Source: Streptomyces sp. ICC1 (GTDB taxonomy: Bacteria; Actinomycetota; Actinomycetes; Streptomycetales; Streptomycetaceae). Taken from it: 64,000 nt of DNA. The notes under the pieces were generated by a model. The model did not search any database. It saw only the letters and a list, made by a program, of their open reading frames with translations, and was not told the DNA's origin. Shown piece after piece: positions 5,776-62,182 of this stretch. The position numbers were made by a program, and so were the translations under genes. The stretch lies in NCBI RefSeq assembly GCF_003287935.1, contig NZ_CP030287.1, forward strand, positions 6,537,227 to 6,601,226, read 5' to 3'. Positions within the stretch are counted from its first letter, which is position 1. Each line of letters begins with the position of its first letter.

Positions 5776-5848
5776 GCCGCCTTCGGGATTCGAACCCGAG
5801 ACCTACGCATTACGAGTGCGTTGCTCTGGCCAGCTGAGCTAAGGCGGC
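5776..5848 (-). tRNA. tRNA-Thr, anticodon CGT
   Basis: Read on the minus strand, 73 bases fold as a canonical cloverleaf. The acceptor stem is GCCGCCT/AGGCGGC and the D arm GCTC...GAGC. The anticodon stem ACGCA/TGCGT has loop CTCGTAA (anticodon CGT, reading ACG). The T arm TCGGG/CCCGA has loop TTCGAAT. The 3' CCA is not encoded, which is usual in Streptomyces. tRNA genes are frequent integration sites, but no integrase or duplicated 3' end lies beside it here. Confidence 0.97.
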
Positions 5849-5904
5849 ACCGCTGGGAAGACAAGAATTTCCCTGGTGGGAGGCTCTCATCAGCAGCGGC
5901 CCAA

Positions 5905-5910
5905 AGTCTA
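5905..5910 (-). promoter_or_regulatory. Candidate -10 element for tRNA-Thr
   Basis: On the minus strand TAGACT (5910-5905) matches the Streptomyces -10 consensus TAGRCT and lies 57 bases before the mature tRNA 5' end. No good -35 hexamer is seen 16-18 bases upstream, so the call is weak. Confidence 0.3.
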
Positions 5911-5989
5911 CAGGGTTAAACGGGGTGCCCCGAACCGGGTCCCGCGGCGAGTCCGCGGGGTCCTCCCGGGGCCCCGTGTGCGTCCCCCG

Positions 5990-7561
5990 TCAGCACTTCT
6001 TGCCCTCCTCCGGGGCCTTGCCCTCCAGGAGGTAGCGGTTGATCGCCGAGTCGATGCAGTTGCTGCCCCGGCCGTACGCCGTGTGGCCGTCCCCGTCGTA
6101 CGTCAGCAGCACGCCCGAGTCGAGCTGGCCGGCCAGGGCCTGGGCCCACTTGTACGGGGTCGCCGGGTCGCGGGTGGTGCCCACCACCACGATCGGCGGG
6201 GCGCCCTTCGCGGTCAGCGCGGCGGCCTTGCCGGTGGCCTTGGCCGGCCAGTACGCGCAGTTCAGCGAGGCCCAGGCGAGGCCCTGGCCGAAGACCGGAG
6301 AGGCCTTCTCGAAGGAGGGCAGCGCCTTCTCCACCGCCGCGGGGCCGTCGAAGGCCGGAGGCTGGTCCAGGCAGTTGACGGCGGCGTTCGCCGACATCAG
6401 GTTGGCGTACTTCCCGTCCGGCTCGCGCTCGTAGTAGCTGTCGGCGAGCGCGAGCAGGCCGTTGCCGTCGTCGTCCTTGATCGCGGCCGTGAGCGCCTCT
6501 CGCAGCTGCGGCCAGGCGTTCTCGTCGTACAGCGCGGCGATCACGCCGGTCGTGGCCAGCGCCTCGCCGACCCCGGTGCGGGCCGGGTCGGTGGTGGGCA
6601 CCGGCACGGCGTCGACCTTGCGGAAGAACTCCTTCAGGCGCGCCGCCACCGCGTCCGGGCTGCCCTGGCCGAGCGGGCAGTCCGGCTGCTTCGCGCAGTC
6701 CGCGGCGAAGGCGCGGAAGGCGGTCTCGAAGCCCTCGGTCTGGTCCCGGTTCAGTTCGAGCGCGGGCCGGGAGGGGTCCATCGCCCCGTCCAGGACCAGC
6801 CGGCCGACCCGCCCCGGGAAGAGGTCGGCGTACGTCGCCCCGAGGAAGGTGCCGTACGAGGCTCCGACGTACGTCAGCTTCTCGTCGCCCAGCGCCGCAC
6901 GGAGCACGTCCATGTCGCGGGCGGCGTCGACGGTGGACACGTGCGGCAGGATCCGCTGCGAGTGCGTCTGGCAGGCGGCCGCGAACTCCTTGAAGGCCGC
7001 CACCAGCAGGGCCTGTTCCGCCGAGGTGTCCGGCGTCTGGTCCACCTGCGTGTACCGGTCCATGGCCGGGCCGGTCAGGCACTGCACCGGGCTGCTCCGG
7101 TCCACGCCGCGCGGGTCGAAGGAGACCATGTCGTACGCCGCGCGGACCTGCGCCGGGTAGCCGATGCCCGCGTACGCCTGGAGGTAGCCGATGCCGGAGC
7201 CGCCCGGGCCGCCCGGGTTGACCACGAGCGAGCCGAGCCGCTTTTCGGGGCTGGTGGCCTTGCGGCGGGCCACGGCGATGTCGATGTCACCGGACTCGGG
7301 GTGCTCGTAGTCCAGCGGGGCCTTCATGGTGGTGCAGTCGAAGCCGGGGACACCGCAGTCGCGCCAGCTCAGCTTCTGGTCGTAGTACGGGCGCAGCGCG
7401 GCCGGGACGGCGCCCGGCTCGGCCGACGGCGCGGCGGATCCGGCGCCGGAGGATGCGGACGCGCTCGGGCCCCCCGAACCGCCCGAGGTGCACCCTGAGA
7501 GCAGCAGCCCCGCGGCAGCGATCACGATCCCGGTGGTGCGCAGCAGGCGACTGGTGTCCAT
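5990..7561 (-). CDS. Secreted lipoprotein alpha/beta hydrolase, tripeptidyl aminopeptidase (TAP) type
   Basis: A 523-residue protein with a lipoprotein signal peptide: basic N-terminus, hydrophobic core, and lipobox LLLSGC with lipidated Cys24, followed by a Ser/Gly/Ala linker. The alpha/beta-hydrolase core carries the nucleophile elbow GASYG (Ser near residue 235), and the catalytic Asp (TTRDPATP, near 464) and His (GDGHTAYG, near 493) lie in the C-terminal TAP-like domain. This matches the Streptomyces Slp/Tap mycelium-associated peptidases that remove N-terminal tripeptides from secreted proteins. It is transcribed toward the tRNA. Activity is inferred from the intact triad. Confidence 0.88.
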   Translation of the reverse strand: MDTSRLLRTTGIVIAAAGLLLSGCTSGGSGGPSASASSGAGSAAPSAEPGAVPAALRPYYDQKLSWRDCGVPGFDCTTMKAPLDYEHPESGDIDIAVARRKATSPEKRLGSLVVNPGGPGGSGIGYLQAYAGIGYPAQVRAAYDMVSFDPRGVDRSSPVQCLTGPAMDRYTQVDQTPDTSAEQALLVAAFKEFAAACQTHSQRILPHVSTVDAARDMDVLRAALGDEKLTYVGASYGTFLGATYADLFPGRVGRLVLDGAMDPSRPALELNRDQTEGFETAFRAFAADCAKQPDCPLGQGSPDAVAARLKEFFRKVDAVPVPTTDPARTGVGEALATTGVIAALYDENAWPQLREALTAAIKDDDGNGLLALADSYYEREPDGKYANLMSANAAVNCLDQPPAFDGPAAVEKALPSFEKASPVFGQGLAWASLNCAYWPAKATGKAAALTAKGAPPIVVVGTTRDPATPYKWAQALAGQLDSGVLLTYDGDGHTAYGRGSNCIDSAINRYLLEGKAPEEGKKC

Positions 7562-24025: not shown

Positions 24026-25762
24026 TCAATGTCCACGGGCCCGGTTGCGTTCGTCCTGGCGGGTGTTCGCGGGGCCGTTCGTGTGCGAACGCGACGGCTG
24101 GGCGGTGGTGTTTCCGGGTAGCGGTGTCGCGGAGGCGTCGGCGGGGAGCCCGGCCAGACGGCGCAGCCGCCACACCAATACATCGCTGACCGAGGATGCG
24201 GTATCCAACTCCCTTCGCCCGGTGGCCTGCACGAGGAGTCCGGCCGGATCGTGGCCGGCCGCTTCAGCGTCGGCGAGGGTAGAGGCGAGCGCCGGCCACC
24301 CGGCCTCGGCCAGGACCTGCTCGGCGAGCTCCGGCACCGCTTGGCGCAGGACGGCGGCATGCCGCCGCTGGAGCGCGGGGGGCAGGAGGCGGCCCCGCTG
24401 GTGGAGTACGGCCATGGGGTGGCCGGCTGCGGCCTGGTAGGCGGCGCGCAGGTGTTCGGCGGCCTGGAGGGCAGCGGCGGCCTGCTGGGCGTGCTCTTTC
24501 CTGCCGTGCCAGGCCGCGGCGGCGGTGACGAGGAAGAACGCCATGTCGATCAGCATCGCGGTGCTCGCCCCGTCCTCCCCGCGGCCGAGCGCCGGCCCGC
24601 CGTGAACGAGGTCACGGGCGGCCTGGCGCAGGGCGCGGTCGTGCCCCCGTGCGGCTCGGACGTGGGAGCGCGAGGCCCGCTCGAACACGGAGGCGGCCTC
24701 GCCAAGTTGCTTGCGGGTGTGCGCGGCGGAGGTCTTGGCGAGTGCGTCCAGGACCTCGCCAGCCGCCGCGATGTGCGCGGAGATCACGCCGTCGTCGCCA
24801 TCGTCGAACACCAGCACCGCCTGCCAGGCTGCGGTCGTTGCGGCCCGTCGTGCGGAGGCAGGCCCGGGCACCGAGCGCAGCGGAGCATCCGCGGTGACGC
24901 CTTCGCCGTCCGGCCCGGCCGCTACGGGGTCCGTCCAGCGCTCACGGATGCGTGGCAGGGAAAGGTCCGGGGCAAGCCGTGCGCCAGGGTAGAAGACCGG
25001 CTCACCCTTCTTGTTGCGGTCGTCGGGGAGCGCGACCTTGTACCCGAGGAGGTCACCGGACGGTGCGACCCGCTTGTGGACGAGCAGGCCGGCCGAGGCC
25101 AGGCGGTCGAAGAACTCACCCTCGCTCTGGGCGCCGGCGACCGCACGGCGCACGGTCTCGCGCAGTTCTTCCCGGGCAGTGCGCTCGCGGCCCTGGCGCT
25201 CGGCCTTGTGGCGTTCGGCGCTGGTGGGGCGCTGGGCGGCGGTCCCGTCCCCGGGCGCGACCTGGTGCAGGCCGAGTTCCTTCTCGATGAGGCGGCACTC
25301 GGCCTGGGCTCGCTTGCCGGAGCGGAAGTCGTCGGGGCGGCTGCCGTCCTCGCACACCAGGGTGGCGATGATGTGGATGTGGTCGTCCGCGTGCCGTACG
25401 GCGGCCCAGCGGCAGGCCGGCTCGCCGTCGCCAGGGTCGATGCCGGTGGCGGCCACGACCCGGCGGGCGATCTCGCCCCACTCCTCGTCGGACAGGATCC
25501 GGTCGCCCGCGGTGGCGCGCACGGAGGTGTGCCACACGTGCTTGGCGGGTCGGGCGTGCTCCGGGAGGGCCTCGACGGGCTGGTCGAGGAGCTGCTGGAG
25601 GTCCTTCAAGGTGGCTTTCGGATCCCGGCCGGGGTCGGGGGACATGCCGTCGAAGGACGCGACGAGGTGCGGGTCGGTGTGCTCCTCGTGCTTGCCCGGC
25701 CCGTACAGGTAGGCGAGGAGGCCGATGGTCCGCGAGCCGGGGTCGTTGACGCTGGGGATCAC
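24026..25762 (-). CDS. Relaxase/mobilization nuclease (HUH type)
   Basis: A 578-residue protein whose N-terminal 200 residues are a relaxase domain. HADDHIHI at residues 124-131 is the metal-binding histidine motif of HUH nucleases, and upstream HVWHTSVRATAGDR fits the family. Such enzymes nick the transfer origin, stay attached to the 5' end through a Tyr, and pilot the strand into a recipient. The remainder is Ala-rich and helical and ends in a basic disordered tail. Its start overlaps the MobC-like stop by four bases (ATGA), showing translational coupling. No coupling ATPase is encoded in the window, so transfer would need helper functions. Confidence 0.85.
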   Translation of the reverse strand: MIPSVNDPGSRTIGLLAYLYGPGKHEEHTDPHLVASFDGMSPDPGRDPKATLKDLQQLLDQPVEALPEHARPAKHVWHTSVRATAGDRILSDEEWGEIARRVVAATGIDPGDGEPACRWAAVRHADDHIHIIATLVCEDGSRPDDFRSGKRAQAECRLIEKELGLHQVAPGDGTAAQRPTSAERHKAERQGRERTAREELRETVRRAVAGAQSEGEFFDRLASAGLLVHKRVAPSGDLLGYKVALPDDRNKKGEPVFYPGARLAPDLSLPRIRERWTDPVAAGPDGEGVTADAPLRSVPGPASARRAATTAAWQAVLVFDDGDDGVISAHIAAAGEVLDALAKTSAAHTRKQLGEAASVFERASRSHVRAARGHDRALRQAARDLVHGGPALGRGEDGASTAMLIDMAFFLVTAAAAWHGRKEHAQQAAAALQAAEHLRAAYQAAAGHPMAVLHQRGRLLPPALQRRHAAVLRQAVPELAEQVLAEAGWPALASTLADAEAAGHDPAGLLVQATGRRELDTASSVSDVLVWRLRRLAGLPADASATPLPGNTTAQPSRSHTNGPANTRQDERNRARGH

Positions 25763-26385
25763 GACGTGCGCTGCGCGATCAGCTGTGCCGCGGCTTCGTG
25801 CACCGTCTCGGCGGCCCGCTGGACGGCGGAGAGCGCCGTGTCGAGCTGGGGGACGTCAGCACCGGAGTTCAAGGCCTTGGAGACCTGGTTCAGGTTGCTG
25901 CCGGCCCAGCCGAGCCTGCGCCGGCTATCGAACAGGGCGGTGATCACTTCGCGCTCGTCGGCGATCTCGGCGCTGGTGCGGTCGAGGTCACGGGCGGCGG
26001 CGAGAGCGGAGCGGGCGAGGAAACCGGCGACGGACAGATGGCATCGGGCGGCGGCGGACTTGATCAGCGAGAACTCTTCTTCGTTGAAGCGGGTATTGGG
26101 CTGGTGCAGTCGCTTTTTCTCTCGCGGCTGGCGCGGGCGCTGTCGGGCGCGGTCGGCGCGGTCACGGCGGCTGCGACGCTCGGACGGCTTCTCCTCCTGC
26201 CCTGACTTCGATCCGCCCCCGGTCGAAGACAGAAGGACCTGCGCCCCCTGGTGCAGGTCCTCTCCCGCCCCCTCGGGGGCGGGTGTGACGGAAGCTACGC
26301 TTCCGTCCCAACTTGCTCGCCGCGAGAGCGAGTTGTAGTCCGGCTGATCTGGAGCGGTGGTCGCACTGTTCGGCGGGTTCGTCAT
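25759..26385 (-). CDS. mobC: MobC-like relaxosome accessory protein
   Basis: A 208-residue protein. Residues from REKKRLHQPNTRFNEEEFSL to AVQRAAETVHEAA carry the ribbon-helix-helix-like core and helical tail of MobC proteins, including the ALNSGADVPQLDTAL wording. MobC helps the relaxase melt and nick oriT. ATG 26385 has AGGAC upstream. However, the first 95 residues look unlike coding sequence (hairpin-rich DNA at 26287-26334), so translation may really begin further downstream and this DNA may be part of oriT. The gene is coupled to the relaxase by a 4-bp overlap. Confidence 0.75.
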   Translation of the reverse strand: MTNPPNSATTAPDQPDYNSLSRRASWDGSVASVTPAPEGAGEDLHQGAQVLLSSTGGGSKSGQEEKPSERRSRRDRADRARQRPRQPREKKRLHQPNTRFNEEEFSLIKSAAARCHLSVAGFLARSALAAARDLDRTSAEIADEREVITALFDSRRRLGWAGSNLNQVSKALNSGADVPQLDTALSAVQRAAETVHEAAAQLIAQRTS

Positions 26386-26489
26386 CGGGTTCGGGTCCTC
26401 GTGGAGCTGGTGCGGTCGGGGTTGCGGTGGGGCGTTCGGGAACCTGCTGCCCGAACGCTGGGCGGCCCGGCAAGGAGCCTGGGCCGCCC
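26287..26489. other. Cluster of inverted repeats before and within mobC (candidate oriT)
   Basis: Four dyads lie in 200 bases: GACGGAAGC/GCTTCCGTC (26287-26295, 26299-26307, 3-base loop); AACTTGCTC/GAGCGAGTT (26310-26318, 26326-26334, one mismatch); GCGTTCGGG/CCCGAACGC (26432-26440, 26450-26458); and GGGCGGCCC/GGGCCGCCC (26460-26468, 26481-26489). Transfer origins usually sit directly upstream of mobC and are rich in such repeats. The outer two could instead be terminators of the upstream operon. Confidence 0.4.
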
Positions 26490-26533
26490 TGTGGAGTGCC
26501 TCAGGGGGCACCCTGTCTGCCGTTATGGGTGAG

Positions 26534-26725
26534 TCATCCGCATTCGGGGCAGTGCGTGTAGTGCCGTGTGAGGGCCTCGGCCATCCGCTGCTTGGTGCCG
26601 AGTGCGTTCCGGGCGCTGGTCTTCGACTGGGGCGTTCCCTGGTGGTGGGCGGCGTAGTTGCCGAGGTAGCGGATGTCGCGCTCGAAGTCGGTGCGGATGC
26701 GAGTGAAGCGGGGACAGGTCTTCAT
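26534..26725 (-). CDS. Small basic island protein (63 aa)
   Basis: A 63-residue basic protein ending in THCPECG, with an early Cys, so a partial zinc-knuckle is possible. Its ATG overlaps the stop of the DUF2637 gene by 4 bases (ATGA), which argues for translational coupling and a real gene. It is the last gene of the WhiB-DUF2637 operon; the hairpins at 26432-26489 lie beyond it. No family recognised. Confidence 0.55.
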   Translation of the reverse strand: MKTCPRFTRIRTDFERDIRYLGNYAAHHQGTPQSKTSARNALGTKQRMAEALTRHYTHCPECG

Positions 26726-28179
26726 CGGGGGCTCCTCGTCTTGGTGTTGTCGTCGCGCAGTCGGGCGAGGACGGGGGTAAGGCGGTCGTTGCGGATGGGG
26801 ATCTGCTGGGCGCGCATGATCGCTCGCAGCTGCACGCGGGTGACCGACTCGTTGCCGTCCCGTTCAAGTGCGGTCCGAACGTGGGGACGCAGTCGGTCGA
26901 CGATCTCGTCCTCGGTGAGGCGGGAGCGGGACCGTGGTCCCGTTCCGGTGCGGGACCGGTCTGGGACGCGGTTCCCCGTCCCCCGCTTCGGTTTGGGGAC
27001 CGGTCCCCGGCGCGGCTTCGCCGGCGGGTCCTCGGGGTCGGCGTTGCCCCGGTCCCCGTCACGGTCCCCGGCGTCGTCCTGGTCCCCATCCGGTGCAGGG
27101 TGGGGACGGGGACCGTCCGTCTCGGTCCCGGGGGCCGTCCCTTTACGGTCCCCGGTCCCCGGGACCGAGACGGTGCGGTCGTGGCGGGGACGGTCCCCGC
27201 TGACGCCGTTGTTCCGCACCGTTGCGGGCGCGTGCCCCGCCCGGTCCCCGCCGGCGGCTTTGGGGTTGGGGACCGAGTTGGGGACCGTGCGGGGCTCGTT
27301 GCCGGTCCCCGGTGGGGCGACAGTCTCAGGACGGTCCCCGTGCTGGGGACCGTCGGTCCCCTCGGGACGGTCCCCGCGCGGGACGGGGACCGTGTTGGGG
27401 CCGGGGTTCAGCTTGGGGACCGTGCCAGGTCGGTCCCCGTTGTGGCGGTCCCCGGTCCCCAGGCCGGTGACGGTCCCCGATGGCTGCGCCGAATCGAGGC
27501 CGATGGGGGCCGGGGGGTCGGGGACCGGGTGGGGACCGTGCCTGTGCTCGGGGACCGTGCTCGTCTGGTCCCCACCCGTACGTTCCCCCGAACGGTGGTC
27601 CCCGCCGGCGGGGACCACGGTCCCGTTGCGGTCCCCTGCCTCTGCGGTGGGCTGGTCCCCCGCCGTCGTCCCGACGGTCAACGCGCTTTCGGGGGCGCCC
27701 TCCGTGGGGAGCGGAGCCCGGTCCCCGGGAGAGGCGACGTGCTGGTGGATCTGGCGCATCAGCACGCCGAAGGCCAGTAGTGCGGCGGTGGGTGGGACGG
27801 CGGCGACCACATAGTCCAGCGCGGGGACCGGGTCGGGGCCGGTCCCGCTTACGCCGGCGACGTTGAGCGCGATGGAGCCGACGGATCCGATGGAGGTGAG
27901 AGCGACGGCCCACCAGTCGGTGACCTTGCGCAGGCCTGCCCGCAGCATGAGCAGTTCGCCGATGACGATGAAGGCGTCCAAGGTGCCGGGCCAGGCCCAC
28001 TGCCGCTCGGGTGACTTGGCCAGGCCGTGCTGGCCGGCGACCTCGGCCAGGTGCGCGTAACTCAGCCAGAAGGCGGCGGCGGTGAGCGCGGCGATGACGG
28101 CTCCGGCGGCGGCGAGCGTGAACCGCTCGGCGGACTCGGTGCTCTTCGTGGCTCTGGAGCCCGTGCCGGGGGTGCTCAT
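26722..28179 (-). CDS. DUF2637/Spd-like membrane protein with a repeat-rich linker
   Basis: A 485-residue protein. Four hydrophobic helices lie at about residues 20-45, 63-83, 89-110 and 119-140, a DUF2637-type domain found in spread/Spd proteins of Streptomyces plasmids. Residues about 150-400 are a disordered linker rich in GDR, GTVP and PVP words. The final 70 residues (SRLTEDEIVDRLRPHVRTAL through LTPVLARLRDD) look like a winged-helix DNA-binding domain. In plasmids such proteins help spread DNA within the recipient mycelium. The gene is coupled to whiB upstream and the 63-aa gene downstream by ATGA overlaps. The linker DNA carries the GGGGACCG array. Confidence 0.7.
   Translation of the reverse strand: MSTPGTGSRATKSTESAERFTLAAAGAVIAALTAAAFWLSYAHLAEVAGQHGLAKSPERQWAWPGTLDAFIVIGELLMLRAGLRKVTDWWAVALTSIGSVGSIALNVAGVSGTGPDPVPALDYVVAAVPPTAALLAFGVLMRQIHQHVASPGDRAPLPTEGAPESALTVGTTAGDQPTAEAGDRNGTVVPAGGDHRSGERTGGDQTSTVPEHRHGPHPVPDPPAPIGLDSAQPSGTVTGLGTGDRHNGDRPGTVPKLNPGPNTVPVPRGDRPEGTDGPQHGDRPETVAPPGTGNEPRTVPNSVPNPKAAGGDRAGHAPATVRNNGVSGDRPRHDRTVSVPGTGDRKGTAPGTETDGPRPHPAPDGDQDDAGDRDGDRGNADPEDPPAKPRRGPVPKPKRGTGNRVPDRSRTGTGPRSRSRLTEDEIVDRLRPHVRTALERDGNESVTRVQLRAIMRAQQIPIRNDRLTPVLARLRDDNTKTRSPR
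26995..27726. repeat. Array of 27 exact GGGGACCG/CGGTCCCC octamers
   Basis: By direct count CGGTCCCC occurs 17 times and GGGGACCG 10 times on the plus strand between 26995 and 27726, often followed by T or paired as the 14-bp palindrome GGGGACCGGTCCCC (26995-27008). Copies fall in more than one codon frame of the overlapping gene (giving GDR or GTVP) and in both orientations. Selection or expansion at the DNA level is therefore likely, beyond peptide repetition. Confidence 0.85.
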
Positions 28180-28892
28180 ACTGCCTTCCGGAGATTGTTG
28201 ATCAGGGCCTGGGTCTGCACGTGACGAGCCACCGGCTTCGGCTTCTGCGCCACGACCTTGCCCCGTCTGTCCTTGCGGGGAATGCTTCGGTCCCGCTCGG
28301 GACCGTCACCGTCGTGGGCTTGGCCGGAGCGCGGGGGCTGCTGCCCGTCGAGGACGGCCTGCCGGGCGGTCTCGGCCGGATTGGGATCCGAGGCGAGGTT
28401 GTCGCGGTCGCGGTTCTCGATGGCGCGGGCCTCCACCCGGAGCAGGTCACGGGCCCACTCGACACCGATTTGAAGGGTGTGGGCGAGGCGGTTCGGGCTC
28501 CAGCCCTGGGCGCTCGCGTAGCGGGTGAGGGTCCTGCGCTCCAGTCGGCTCAGCTGGATGTCCCGGCCCTCGATCGCGGCCTTCACCCGGCTGTAGTCCA
28601 GCCGGTTCTCGACCTGGTCGTGCCAGGTCAGTCGCTCGGCCTCGGTCAGGCCGCCCCAGATGCCCTCCTTGACCTCGTTGTCCAGGGCGTAGTTGAAGCA
28701 TTCGCGGCGGACCGGGCACCAGCTGCAGATCTCCTTCGCCTCCGCGATGGCGTAGTCGTCGTTGGGCGTGTGGAAGTACAGCTCGTCTGCGGTGGCGGGG
28801 TCGACTCCGTTGCAGGCGGCTCGGGCGTGCCAGCTGATATCGGCGACGCCGTGGAGGTCCGTGGGAGGGACGTTGGTGGTGATGTAGCGCAT
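28176..28892 (-). CDS. WhiB-family regulator with a long C-terminal extension
   Basis: A 238-residue protein. Residues 18-95 are a complete WhiB domain with the four iron-sulphur cysteines C27, C56, C59 and C65 (ICSWCPVRREC) and the turn GIWGGLTEAER. WhiB proteins bind a 4Fe-4S cluster and partner the main sigma factor at promoters. The extra 140 residues include an HTH-like segment (RYASAQGWSPNRLAHTLQIG) and a basic tail; most WhiB proteins are 80-130 aa. ATG 28892 is preferred to 28919. It heads the operon with DUF2637 and the 63-aa gene, so it may regulate the element. Confidence 0.85.
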   Translation of the reverse strand: MRYITTNVPPTDLHGVADISWHARAACNGVDPATADELYFHTPNDDYAIAEAKEICSWCPVRRECFNYALDNEVKEGIWGGLTEAERLTWHDQVENRLDYSRVKAAIEGRDIQLSRLERRTLTRYASAQGWSPNRLAHTLQIGVEWARDLLRVEARAIENRDRDNLASDPNPAETARQAVLDGQQPPRSGQAHDGDGPERDRSIPRKDRRGKVVAQKPKPVARHVQTQALINNLRKAV

Positions 28893-29047
28893 GGGGATGT
28901 GTCTCCGGGTACGCCTCATGGGCCGGCGGGCGGGCAGCGCGGCACACCAGTGCTGAAGCGGTGTGGGTGCGGCTCGGCGGCGAGGCAGGGCAGGGGAGCG
29001 GCGGCGGGGCCGCCCCGAAGGGGGGGCGGTGGCTGCTTTGCCCCTCG

Positions 29048-59458: not shown

Positions 59459-62182
59459 ATGCAGATGGGGGTCACGGGAGAGCAGATCGGCCCCGCACGC
59501 TCCCGTGAGCGGTTCCTGGGGGGCGAGCCGGTCGAGGCCGGCGTGCGCGGCCCGATCCTGAACTCCTGGCGGCGCTGCCGGCTGCTGGGCCTGTCACCGG
59601 ACGGGGCCGAGCTGCCCTACCGGGACGACTTCGATCCGGACAGCCGGCTCGTACGGGCCGCCGGACCCGTCCTCGACGCACTGCAGTCCCGGTTCTCCGA
59701 CAGCCAGATGAACATCTCGGTCACCGACGCGAACGGCACGGTGCTCCAACGCCGCTTCGGCGAGGCCTCCCTGGCCCGCAGCCTGCCCCCCATCCAGAGC
59801 GTGCCCGGCTTCGTCTTCGCCGAGCGCTTCGCCGGGACCAACGGCATCGGCCTCGCGCTGGCCGAACGCGGCCCCATCCAGGTCTTCGGCGCGGAGCACT
59901 TCGCCGAACGCGCCCAGTCGAACGCCTGCTGCGCCGTACCCATCCGCGACCAGCTCAGCGGGCACATCGCGGGCGTGCTCTGCTTCGGCTACCCGCACAC
60001 CTACGAGCACCCGGCCCTCGCCGTCCTGCTCCGCCGGGCGGCCGGGACGATCGAGCGGCGGATGACGGAGCAGAGCTCGCGGCGCGAGCGCGAGCTGCTG
60101 CGGGCGTACCTGGACGCCGGGCCGGACGGACCGGGGGGCCCGACCGGCAGGGAGGGACTGACCGGTCCGGAGGGACCGACCGGCAGGGAGGGACTGACCG
60201 GTCCGGAGGGACCGACCGGGCTGCGGGAGCCGACCGGTCCCGCGCTGGATCCGCGCGATCAGACGATCCTCAAGGACCGGGCGAGCGAGCTGATCTCCTC
60301 GTTCCGGCGGGCCGTCGTCGACGTGGCACTCCCCCACGGCCGAGGGGCCACCTTGCTGAGCCACCCGGTGACGAGCCGCTCCGGGGTGGCGGGCATGGTC
60401 GTCGAGGCCGTGCTCAACAACGACGGGCCACCGGCGCCCACAACCGCGCAGCGGCCCGCCGCGGTCCGCGGACTGGTCCTGGTGGGCGAGCCGGAGGTCG
60501 GGAAGTACGCCGTCGAGGCGCGGCGCCGCCTGGAGCTGCTGGCCGAGGCCAGCACCCGTATCGGCACCACCCTGGACGTGGGCCGCACCGCCCACGAGCT
60601 CGCCGAGATGGCCGTCCCGGCCCTGGCCGACTACGTCACCGTCGACCTGCCCGAGGCCGTACTGCGCGGCGACGACCCCGCCGGTCCCGGGACGGACCTG
60701 TACCGGACGGTGGTCCACGGCATCCGCGACGACTGCCCCTTCTACCCGGCGGGTCAGCACGTACGGCTGGGCGCCGCTAATCCCGTCATGCGCTGCCTGA
60801 CCGAGAGCCGCACGTTCCTGGAACCCGAGCTGGGGTCCGCGGCCGGCTGGATCGCGCAGGACCCCGATCGCGCCCGCCGGATCATGGCGCGCGGCGTGCA
60901 CTCCCTGATCGCCGTGCCGCTGCTGGCCCGCGGCGTCCTGCTGGGCATCGCGAGCTTCTACCGCGCGCAGGACCCCGCCCCGTACGCGGACGACGACAGC
61001 CGGCTGGCCCAAGAGCTCGCGGCCCGCGCCGCCCTGTGCATCGACAACGCCCGCCGCTACACCCGGGAGCACACCCTGGCCCTGGCGCTCCAGCGCAGCC
61101 TGCTCCCCCGCGGCCTGCCCGAGCAGGACGCCGTCGAGGTCGCTCACCGCTATCTGCCCGCCGAGTCCGGAGTGGGCGGCGACTGGTTCGACGTCATCCC
61201 CCTGTCCGGCGCCCGCGTCGCGCTCCTCGTGGGCGACGTCGTCGGCCACGGGCTGCACGCCGCCGCCACAATGGGGCGGCTGCGGACCGCGGCGCGCAAC
61301 TTCGCCGAACTGGAACTCGCCCCCGACGAACTCCTCACCCACCTGGACAACCTCCTGGTGCGTCTGGACCGGGAGGAGGGGGACGACCACGCCACCGGCA
61401 GCACCGGCATCGCCGGCGCCACCTGCCTGTACGCCGTCTACGACCCCACCTCGCGGCAGTGCGCCATGGCCCGGGCCGGCCACCTCCCGCCCGCCCTGGT
61501 CCATCCGGACGGCACCGCGAGCTTCCCCGACCTGCCCGCGGGCCCCCCGCTGGGCCTGGGCGGCCTGCCCTTCGAGACGGCCGAGATCACGCTCCCCCGG
61601 GACAGCACCCTCGTGCTCTACACCGACGGGCTCGTCGAGGACCGCCACCGCGACATCGACGTGGCCCTCGACCGGCTGCGGCGCACCCTGGCCCACCCGG
61701 GCCGGAGCCCCGAGGAGACCTGTCAGGCGGTCATGCACGCCATGGCTCCCGAGCACCCCTCCGACGACATCGCCCTGCTCGTCGCCCGCACCCGCACCCT
61801 GCCCGCCGACCGGATCGCGGTCTGGGACCTGCCGGCCGACCCCGAGCGGGTGTCCGCGCTGCGCGCCGCCGCCACGCGCCGGCTGGCCGACTGGGGGCTG
61901 GACGAGCTCGCGTTCGCCGCCGAGCTGGTGCTGAGCGAGCTGGTCACCAACGCCATCCGCTACGGCACCGAGCCGATCCAGGTCCGCCTGATCCACGACC
62001 GCGCGCTGATCTGCGAGGTGTCCGACGGCAGCAGTACCGCCCCGCACCTGCGGCGGGCGGCCACCACGGACGAGGGCGGGCGCGGCCTGTTCCTCGTGGC
62101 ACAGCTGGCCCAGTCCTGGGGTGCCCGCTACACGCCCCGCGGCAAGGTCATCTGGGCCGAATGCGCCCTGGACGCGGCATAG
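59459..62182 (+). CDS. GAF-PP2C-HATPase partner-switching protein with collagen-like linker
   Basis: A 907-residue soluble protein. The N-terminus (RERFLGGEPVEAGVRGPILN) and the region to residue 195 resemble the GAF domain of AcoR-type regulators. A Gly-X-Y linker follows at about residues 225-262 (GREGLTGPEGPT twice). A second GAF is at about 360-530, then a SpoIIE phosphatase domain (GGDWFDVIPL, GDVVGHGLHAA, LYTDGLVEDR, HPSDDIALLV). The C-terminal HATPase kinase has N box ELVTNAIRYG and G box GGRGLFLVAQ. It can both phosphorylate and dephosphorylate anti-sigma partners in response to a GAF ligand. ATG 59459 follows AAGGGGAA. Confidence 0.88.
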   Translation: MQMGVTGEQIGPARSRERFLGGEPVEAGVRGPILNSWRRCRLLGLSPDGAELPYRDDFDPDSRLVRAAGPVLDALQSRFSDSQMNISVTDANGTVLQRRFGEASLARSLPPIQSVPGFVFAERFAGTNGIGLALAERGPIQVFGAEHFAERAQSNACCAVPIRDQLSGHIAGVLCFGYPHTYEHPALAVLLRRAAGTIERRMTEQSSRRERELLRAYLDAGPDGPGGPTGREGLTGPEGPTGREGLTGPEGPTGLREPTGPALDPRDQTILKDRASELISSFRRAVVDVALPHGRGATLLSHPVTSRSGVAGMVVEAVLNNDGPPAPTTAQRPAAVRGLVLVGEPEVGKYAVEARRRLELLAEASTRIGTTLDVGRTAHELAEMAVPALADYVTVDLPEAVLRGDDPAGPGTDLYRTVVHGIRDDCPFYPAGQHVRLGAANPVMRCLTESRTFLEPELGSAAGWIAQDPDRARRIMARGVHSLIAVPLLARGVLLGIASFYRAQDPAPYADDDSRLAQELAARAALCIDNARRYTREHTLALALQRSLLPRGLPEQDAVEVAHRYLPAESGVGGDWFDVIPLSGARVALLVGDVVGHGLHAAATMGRLRTAARNFAELELAPDELLTHLDNLLVRLDREEGDDHATGSTGIAGATCLYAVYDPTSRQCAMARAGHLPPALVHPDGTASFPDLPAGPPLGLGGLPFETAEITLPRDSTLVLYTDGLVEDRHRDIDVALDRLRRTLAHPGRSPEETCQAVMHAMAPEHPSDDIALLVARTRTLPADRIAVWDLPADPERVSALRAAATRRLADWGLDELAFAAELVLSELVTNAIRYGTEPIQVRLIHDRALICEVSDGSSTAPHLRRAATTDEGGRGLFLVAQLAQSWGARYTPRGKVIWAECALDAA
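60140..60211. repeat. 36-bp coding tandem repeat
   Basis: Two identical 36-base units (60140-60175 and 60176-60211) encode the collagen-like GREGLTGPEGPT peptide twice in the GAF-PP2C protein. Confidence 0.9.

Follow-up and report, generated by a model that had tools for sequence, protein, structure and literature searches.

An octamer array within a DUF2637 gene

Why would a single gene carry 27 copies of one octamer within 732 bp, in both orientations? The question is raised by a DUF2637 gene of Streptomyces sp. ICC1, located in the 64-kb stretch of DNA that was analysed here as a whole (64,000 nucleotides, hereafter the window). We know of no function assigned to DUF2637 in Pfam, and of no established answer to how relaxase-bearing integrated Streptomyces elements reach a mating pore. 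The locus comprises the following features, given in window coordinates.

28176..28919, minus strand: WhiB-like gene, upstream of the DUF2637 gene (profile match)
26722..28179, minus strand: DUF2637 (PF10935) gene, 485 aa, with the array in a Gly/Pro/Asp/Thr/Arg-rich linker (profile match)
27757..28119, minus strand: N-terminal membrane part of the DUF2637 protein, four hydrophobic stretches at aa 21-39, 65-83, 92-110 and 123-141 (Kyte-Doolittle)
26995..27830, no strand assigned: octamer array GGGGACCG/CGGTCCCC, 28 exact copies, 27 of them within 26995-27726
26725..26985, minus strand: C-terminal domain 'ct1', the proposed array reader, with three predicted helices and the start of helix 3 within IRNDR
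26534..26725, minus strand: 63-aa Cys-containing small protein, a frequent neighbour of the DUF2637 gene (family in 44 loci)
26162..26382, minus strand: candidate oriT, a stretch similar in 19/19 aligned loci that combines GAGCAAGTTG with covarying hairpins and a GACCGAGGGCGGA-like block
25759..26511, minus strand: NikA/MobC-like relaxosome accessory ORF, PF21983 match at residues 133-210
24026..25762, minus strand: relaxase, MobA/VirD2-like (PF03432, 30.5 bits against a cut-off of 24.6)

The DUF2637 ORF scored 40.5 bits against PF10935 (curated cut-off 22.8), and is hence a member of the family. As the number of hydrophobic stretches is even, both ends of the protein are probably cytoplasmic. 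The relaxase, with PF03432 above its cut-off, and its MobC/NikA-like partner together form a MobA/VirD2-type relaxase module; the PF21983 match of the partner reaches 28.4 bits against a cut-off of 27, and its true start probably lies nearer 26.1 kb. No FtsK/SpoIIIE domain (PF01580) was found within the 64-kb window, the nearest of eight matches in the genome being at 6613208, approximately 12 kb past the window end. A single coupling-protein model, TraG-D_C, likewise gave no match in the window, and its two matches in the genome are far off (7646482 and 8021212). The mating pore, if one is used, is therefore probably borrowed. A search of positions 25700-28300 against Rfam returned five matches, none of which reached the gathering score.

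By exact count, the plus strand of 26995-27726 carries GGGGACCG ten times and CGGTCCCC, which is GGGGACCG on the minus strand, 17 times; a further copy at 27823 brings the total of the ORF to 28. The spacing is irregular, with no period standing out among the array sites, and the majority orientation (17/27) places GGGGACCG on the minus strand, i.e. the strand of the relaxase. This agrees exactly with a preliminary description of the locus, which had counted 17 plus 10 octamers in both orientations and in more than one frame. All three frames are occupied: GGGGACCG falls 11, 1 and 5 times in coding-strand frames 0, 1 and 2, and CGGTCCCC 8 and 3 times in frames 1 and 2. The window as a whole holds 40 octamers; dinucleotide shuffles (n=100) average 13.45 (sd 4.13) and reach 28 at most. 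The densest 732 bp in 40 whole-window shuffles contained at most 4. When the dinucleotides of the DUF2637 ORF alone were shuffled (n=300), at most 5 octamers were obtained, as opposed to the 28 observed. A 36-bp tandem repeat with GGGACCG-like units is also present at 60127-60240, far from the relaxase module.

An ordinary repetitive linker, in which GDR, TVP and GTG peptide repeats mimic DNA repeats by chance, might be expected to produce such a pattern, and the linker is indeed rich in Pro, Gly, Asp, Thr and Arg. However, recoding the same peptide with the codon usage of the window (n=2000) gave a mean of 4.7 and a maximum of 12 octamers, and permuting the ORF's own synonymous codons (n=2000) a mean of 7.8 and a maximum of 16, far below the observed 28. 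The same codon nulls applied to other in-gene arrays yielded maxima of 11 (22 octamers observed, L071), 11 (30, L075), 11 (20, L089) and 14 (23, L127), with a weaker excess in L135 (13 octamers against a null maximum of 12). In addition, the same genome contains two further arrays, L009 and L010, in which these octamers lie mainly between genes. We count this as already refuting the linker explanation, whose probability is negligible: the intergenic arrays and the codon nulls rule out peptide repetition as the cause, and the array is selected at the level of the DNA.

Further arrays in the genome and genus

The genome to which the window belongs (9.03 Mb, one contig) was searched for same-strand octamer pairs at most 30 bases apart, which revealed two more dense groups in addition to isolated pairs. 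The first, L009 (G000:C1:2482000-2495000), has 17 octamers at 5820-6478, all except the first sitting between an IstB-like gene and a MobC-relaxase pair. In the other, L010 (G000:C1:4748000-4761000), a TrwC relaxase-helicase gene is preceded by 11 octamers, at 6251-6536. The region upstream of this TrwC gene also shows, at L010 6251-6565 (G000:C1:4754250-4754564), palindromic GGGGACNGTCCCC units spaced at 26-28 bp. None of 24 other fetched TrwC match loci, some of which are two pieces of one gene, contained an array of the L010 type, GGGGACC reaching at most 2 copies.

A three-octamer pattern was matched in 93/199 genomes of the genus, although many of the matches look like regular tandem repeats and a reversed-pattern control also matched in some genomes. 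We chose 24 regions by eye among the matches listed, one of which (L070) then proved to be without an array; the remaining 23, the window, L009 and L010 make up a set of 26 array loci. In 23 of these 26, all but L010, L061 and L064, a relaxase of one and the same family is found next to the array. According to the gene calls, 10 loci have the array inside a DUF2637 gene and 9 have it upstream of a DUF3631-type gene, the remaining 7 having it in other positions. At the 403 sites of these loci, the base after the heptamer GGGGACC is G in 91%, and the base before it is C or T in 87%. In this octamer-picked set the base profile is near-identical for in-gene and intergenic arrays (G at -1, 0.94 and 0.95; at -2, 0.80 and 0.79). 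The preliminary description had suggested that the octamers may be a recognition array of a mobile element, and had asked whether homologues keep them while the peptide changes; the array is indeed retained, within the transfer module, where the peptide is different or absent. At L061 (9821-10018), an integrase, an excisionase-like gene and an array are present and the DUF3631-MobC-relaxase block was not called, as if lost.

Position of the arrays relative to the relaxase

To avoid picking loci by their octamers, a set of 87 loci was selected by relaxase only, consisting of the best 80 of 555 relatives in named genomes, which are close relatives of the relaxase of the window, and 7 loci from viral contigs. 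Loci cut by contig ends (5 of the 80) were left out of the 75-locus and 82-locus class counts. Some loci were seen twice (L048/L101, L054/L109 and L069/L092), and L112/L115/L118 and L097/L098 are near-copies. The preliminary description held that an octamer equally dense elsewhere would speak against a recognition array. This is not what was found: relative to the start of the relaxase, octamer density in the 87 loci peaks at 10.3/kb between -2000 and -1500 and does not exceed 0.25/kb beyond the interval -2500 to -500. The array thus has its place beside the relaxase.

Within -2700 to -300, at least 6 copies of GGGACCG were present in 52 of the 75 uncut loci (from the best 80 of 555), at least 6 of GCGGACCA in 5 and at least 7 of CGGGCAG in 10; 8 loci showed no motif class. 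The same thresholds were passed by 0, 0 and 3, respectively, of 79 control segments located downstream. The GGGGACCG and GCGGACCA array classes are firm, while that of CGGGCAG is tentative since 3/79 control segments pass its threshold.

Homologues with a repetitive linker but no octamers had also been named as evidence to the contrary, and here too the outcome is mostly in favour of a recognition array. Relatives whose repetitive linker is long have the same or a switched octamer array, whereas some relaxase-linked DUF2637 genes, mostly short ones, have no recognisable array (L104, L124, L136, L152-L154, L156 and L157). In four of the viral-contig loci (L152-L154 and L157), AAGACGG occurs 5-6 times approximately 2 kb upstream of the relaxase, and the short DUF2637 gene has another C-terminus; AAGACGG, not counted as a class here, may represent a further motif class. 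A sample of 34 other DUF2637 loci revealed no strong array, with best 7-mer enrichment scores of 36 and 34; arrays score approximately 26-137 on a similar scale, such that weak arrays are possible.

The motif follows the C-terminal domain of DUF2637

Five loci carry GCGGACCA at the position where their relatives carry GGGGACCG. A whole DUF2637-type protein was called in three of these (L089, L127 and L135, not L088 or L122), and its N-terminal part is 78-89% identical to that of L123 and, in two of them, 84-86% identical to that of L101/L048, while the C-terminus is different. For L127 (GCGGACCA) and L123 (GGGGACCG), identity is 89% over DUF2637 residues 1-146, 78% for IstB and 79% for the relaxase; the C-terminus and the motif are not shared.

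Profiles of the C-terminal domains were built from motif-picked loci: ct1 from 42 rows with GGGGACC arrays, ct2 from L089 and L127, and ct3 from L107, L110, L113, L120 and L132. When applied to the 82 uncut loci, ct1 was accompanied by at least 6 GGGACCG in 43/43 loci (9-36 copies), ct2 by at least 6 GCGGACCA in 5/5, and ct3 by at least 7 CGGGCAG in 10/11. The motif and the C-terminal domain therefore covary, with no locus passing the threshold of another class. One of the three domains is present in 59 of the 82 loci and none in the other 23, of which 10 have GGGACCG. Outside the training rows, motif and class matched in 11/11 loci for ct1, 3/3 for ct2 and 5/6 for ct3. The first of these counts includes L145, which has the lowest-scoring ct1 (86.8 bits) and an array dominated by GGGGACGG. 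The arrays are also polar. GGGGACCG reads towards the relaxase at 454 sites and away from it at 154 in the ct1 loci (608 sites; 44/46 loci), the corresponding numbers for GCGGACCA in the five ct2 loci are 79 and 6 (85 sites), and 77/125 sites of intergenic arrays (10 loci) point towards the relaxase.

Within ct1, the residue preceding the Asn of helix 3 is either Arg or Gly. From Arg to Gly, G at -1 falls from a mean of 0.89 (37 loci, 0.67-1.00) to 0.59 (9 loci, 0.48-0.73; p=7e-6) and G at -2 from 0.71 to 0.45 (p=1.6e-5), both p-values being overstated because the loci are related. Loci with fewer than 6 sites were left out of this comparison and duplicate loci entered once. On the relaxase tree the Gly loci are split between two clades (support 88 and 100*), both of which also have Arg members (L080, and L141 and L148, respectively), with G at -1 of 0.92 in L080, 0.67 in L141 (6 sites only) and 0.90 in L148. 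Reader loci fetched later agree, with G at -1 of 0.53 (L212) and 0.56 (L215) for Gly, and 0.83 (L214) for Arg; these three are the only new loci, L213 and L216 being L097 and L093 again.

AlphaFold2 predicts three helices for both ct1 (pLDDT 71) and ct2 (pLDDT 78). A fold search with the two models gave no PDB match at E<=0.001, and a PDB sequence search returned 21 rows, every one of them calmodulin (including one chimera) or synaptobrevin/VAMP, which were taken as chance. The two profiles resemble each other only weakly (probability 2.6%, P 0.017). The best reading is that the C-terminal three-helix domain of DUF2637 acts as the reader of the array. Of the readers put forward in the preliminary description, this domain fits best, by class covariation and by the effect of the helix residue, whereas a TraB acting locally finds no support, as the window contains no FtsK/SpoIIIE-domain or TraG-D_C protein and the pSVH1 octamer is near chance level in it. 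The array and the C-terminal domain are adjacent, and one recombination could move both without any functional bond; the effect of the single Arg-to-Gly change argues against such mere co-transfer, although the loci are related. At L149 (7833-9282), the DUF2637 ORF ends early, the array continues outside it and ct1 is found in a separate 95-aa frame, through either sequencing error or decay.

A candidate oriT and alternative readers

Located at approximately -620 to -400 of the relaxase, a block of 220 bp that contains hairpins and GAGCAAGTTG is alike across 19 aligned loci comprising 9 ct1, 3 ct2, 2 ct3 and 5 intergenic-array loci, DUF3631-type loci lying outside the alignment. Compensatory changes affect 15/29 consensus pairs, and the hairpin-rich block is a candidate oriT of this MobA/VirD2-like relaxase family. 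Different octamers accompany relaxases that share 72-79% identity, and the IstB proteins on either side of the motif switch share 67-82%. On the relaxase tree, loci of different motif classes are intermingled, ct3 and intergenic GGGGACCG loci being found within one 99* clade of 27 rows. Because these proteins and the candidate oriT stay alike while the motif changes, the relaxase, MobC and the replication proteins are poor candidates for the reader.

These observations bear directly on the alternatives. It is improbable that the octamers form part of oriT and are bound by MobC/NikA or the relaxase: although such a role would fit the upstream position of the array, seen in several gene contexts in the 23 array loci (of 26) with a called relaxase, similar relaxases are found with different octamers, the intergenic label undergoes at least 9 changes on a relaxase tree whose motif classes are interleaved, the separate hairpin-rich candidate oriT is alike across array classes, and the L010 array lies beside a TrwC relaxase. 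The octamers could instead be iterons of a replication origin, read by c13 (a guessed initiator with no Pfam match), the IstB-like loader or the DUF3631 ATPase, and many arrays do adjoin IstB-like (PF01695), DUF3631 (PF12307) or c19 genes (HTH_36, below cut-off). We regard this as very improbable, given the conservation of IstB across the motif switch, the 90% identity over 343 residues between the DUF3631 proteins of L096, which has an array, and L155, which has none, and the presence of an array in L105, where none of these replication-type genes was called nearby. DUF3631 and IstB were themselves rejected as readers on account of this high identity across array presence and motif switch.

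A translocase site is the remaining alternative. The octamers are polar, short, asymmetric and clustered, like the 8-bp motifs of pSVH1 TraB in the excerpts available of PMC3583192, and might be a clt/TRS locus read by a TraB/FtsK-like translocase that a helper element provides, with elements lacking a reader relying on the same site. That the FtsK/SpoIIIE-domain gene nearest to the window lies beyond its end makes this quite improbable, and a foreign translocase would leave the tracking of the motif with C-terminal class and helix residue unexplained.

Proposed role of the array

In our view, the array is likely to be recognised by the DUF2637 protein that its own element encodes, and this protein would dock the element, once excised, at the membrane close to the start of transfer. 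The protein would be held in the membrane by its four N-terminal helices and present a three-helix DNA-binding domain at its C-terminus. Through binding of the ct1 domain to octamers that mostly point towards the candidate oriT and relaxase, the element, excised and probably replicating, would then be docked at the membrane next to the relaxosome. Such docking may bring the relaxosome to a mating pore borrowed from elsewhere, may serve positioning and inheritance, or may do both. With the octamers placed in the linker that the reader's gene itself encodes, reader and array would travel together. The proposal gives DUF2637 a testable role and names a likely DNA-contact residue. The arrays also provide a natural series of specificity switches (GGGGACCG, GCGGACCA, GGGGACGG and perhaps CGGGCAG), and together with the candidate oriT they constitute a DNA signature for finding these elements in assemblies.

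Comparison with known systems

The DUF2637 array resembles clt/TraB, sps/SpdA2 and stbDR/StbA, yet lacks a tested feature of the first two. In the excerpts available, TraB of pSVH1 is reported to read repeated 8-bp motifs via a C-terminal winged helix (PMC3583192). In clt/TRS systems (pSVH1, TraA of pWTY27), short repeats cluster next to, or partly within, the gene for the membrane protein that binds them, an arrangement like the one found here, where binding is proposed. A cluster of approximately 8-bp repeats is present (27 octamers in 732 bp); in contrast, an FtsK/SpoIIIE-type traB is absent from the window, no ATPase domain was matched in the DUF2637 protein, and a relaxase and MobC are present. 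The sequence also differs, the octamer of pSVH1 being GACCCGGA, which occurs in the window near chance level (12 copies, 8.15 expected, with 10/100 shuffles reaching 12).

SpdA2 of pIJ101 is described, in the part of PMC4170104 available, as a DNA-binding protein with sps sites inside its own coding region, or upstream in some plasmids, following the same logic as the in-gene and intergenic arrays. However, sps is there a 12-bp palindrome (CGTCACGTGACG) of 2-3 copies conserved across plasmids, whereas here 27 asymmetric octamers switch in sequence with the proposed reader. One match to CGTCACGTGACG with one mismatch was found in the window (expected 0.51), which is at chance level. The stbDR of R388 consists of two sets of five 9-bp repeats next to oriT, bound by StbA, which balances plasmid positioning and stability with conjugation (PMC3098194, in excerpt). 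The array described here lies upstream of a covarying candidate oriT. The same excerpt does not describe StbA as membrane-anchored and places its sites around its promoter; in our case, proposed reader and membrane anchor are one protein, and the array is inside its gene. The accessible parts of the open-licence literature on GGGGACCG in Streptomyces, on DUF2637 or on relaxases and IMEs do not describe such an array, nor was one found in the portions available of PMC10711302 and PMC9513070. The 13-bp palindrome appeared only in unrelated papers of the open-licence literature.

Arrays without a local reader

Not every array is accompanied by a reader. No ct1 domain was detected in the fetched regions of 26 loci whose array lies outside a ct1-bearing gene, even with filters off (best E 3.5), and 5 of the 24 genomes with reader-less array loci (2/14 and 3/10) have the domain anywhere. 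In the genus sample it was found in 32/199 Streptomyces genomes (27 candidates per genome scored, so that some may be missed), in the class sample in 5/296 genomes and 1/114 genera (18 candidates per genome scored), and PLSDB plasmids gave no match. A host-wide reader was rejected on the basis of this restricted occurrence in the genus and class samples and of strain G44, which holds both motif types (GGGGACCG at L077 and GCGGACCA at L089). A co-resident reader as a requirement for intergenic arrays is unsupported by the 5/24 genomes. The existence of arrays with no reader nearby would favour a shared service such as transfer docking over a private centromere, because incompatibility is the usual result when a centromere is shared.

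One possible, if doubtful, extension of the docking role is a code in which self-encoded reader-array pairs drift in specificity via one recognition helix, and reader-less elements have repeatedly gained the common array to use another element's reader. It would reach an unrelated relaxase family, as the TrwC element L010 is among the reader-less array bearers. In line with such a code, reader-less and reader-bearing arrays have near-identical base profiles (in octamer-picked loci), and the intergenic label changes repeatedly on the relaxase tree, as noted above. The reader-less arrays of L112, L115, L118 and L128 are relaxed at -1 (0.44-0.52), and those of L112 and L115 co-reside with Gly-type readers (L115 also with an Arg-type one). 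Against it, the genomes of L118 and L128 hold no reader, L052 has a strict array (G at -1 of 1.0) together with a Gly-type reader in its genome, and co-residence is not clearly enriched (5/24 compared with 32/199). If reader-less elements do copy the array, this would amount to a new form of parasitism between mobile elements. At L067 (14807-18969), a pPIWI_RE-associated REase gene (PF18154) and a 1085-aa gene adjoin a ct1 element as possible defence cargo.
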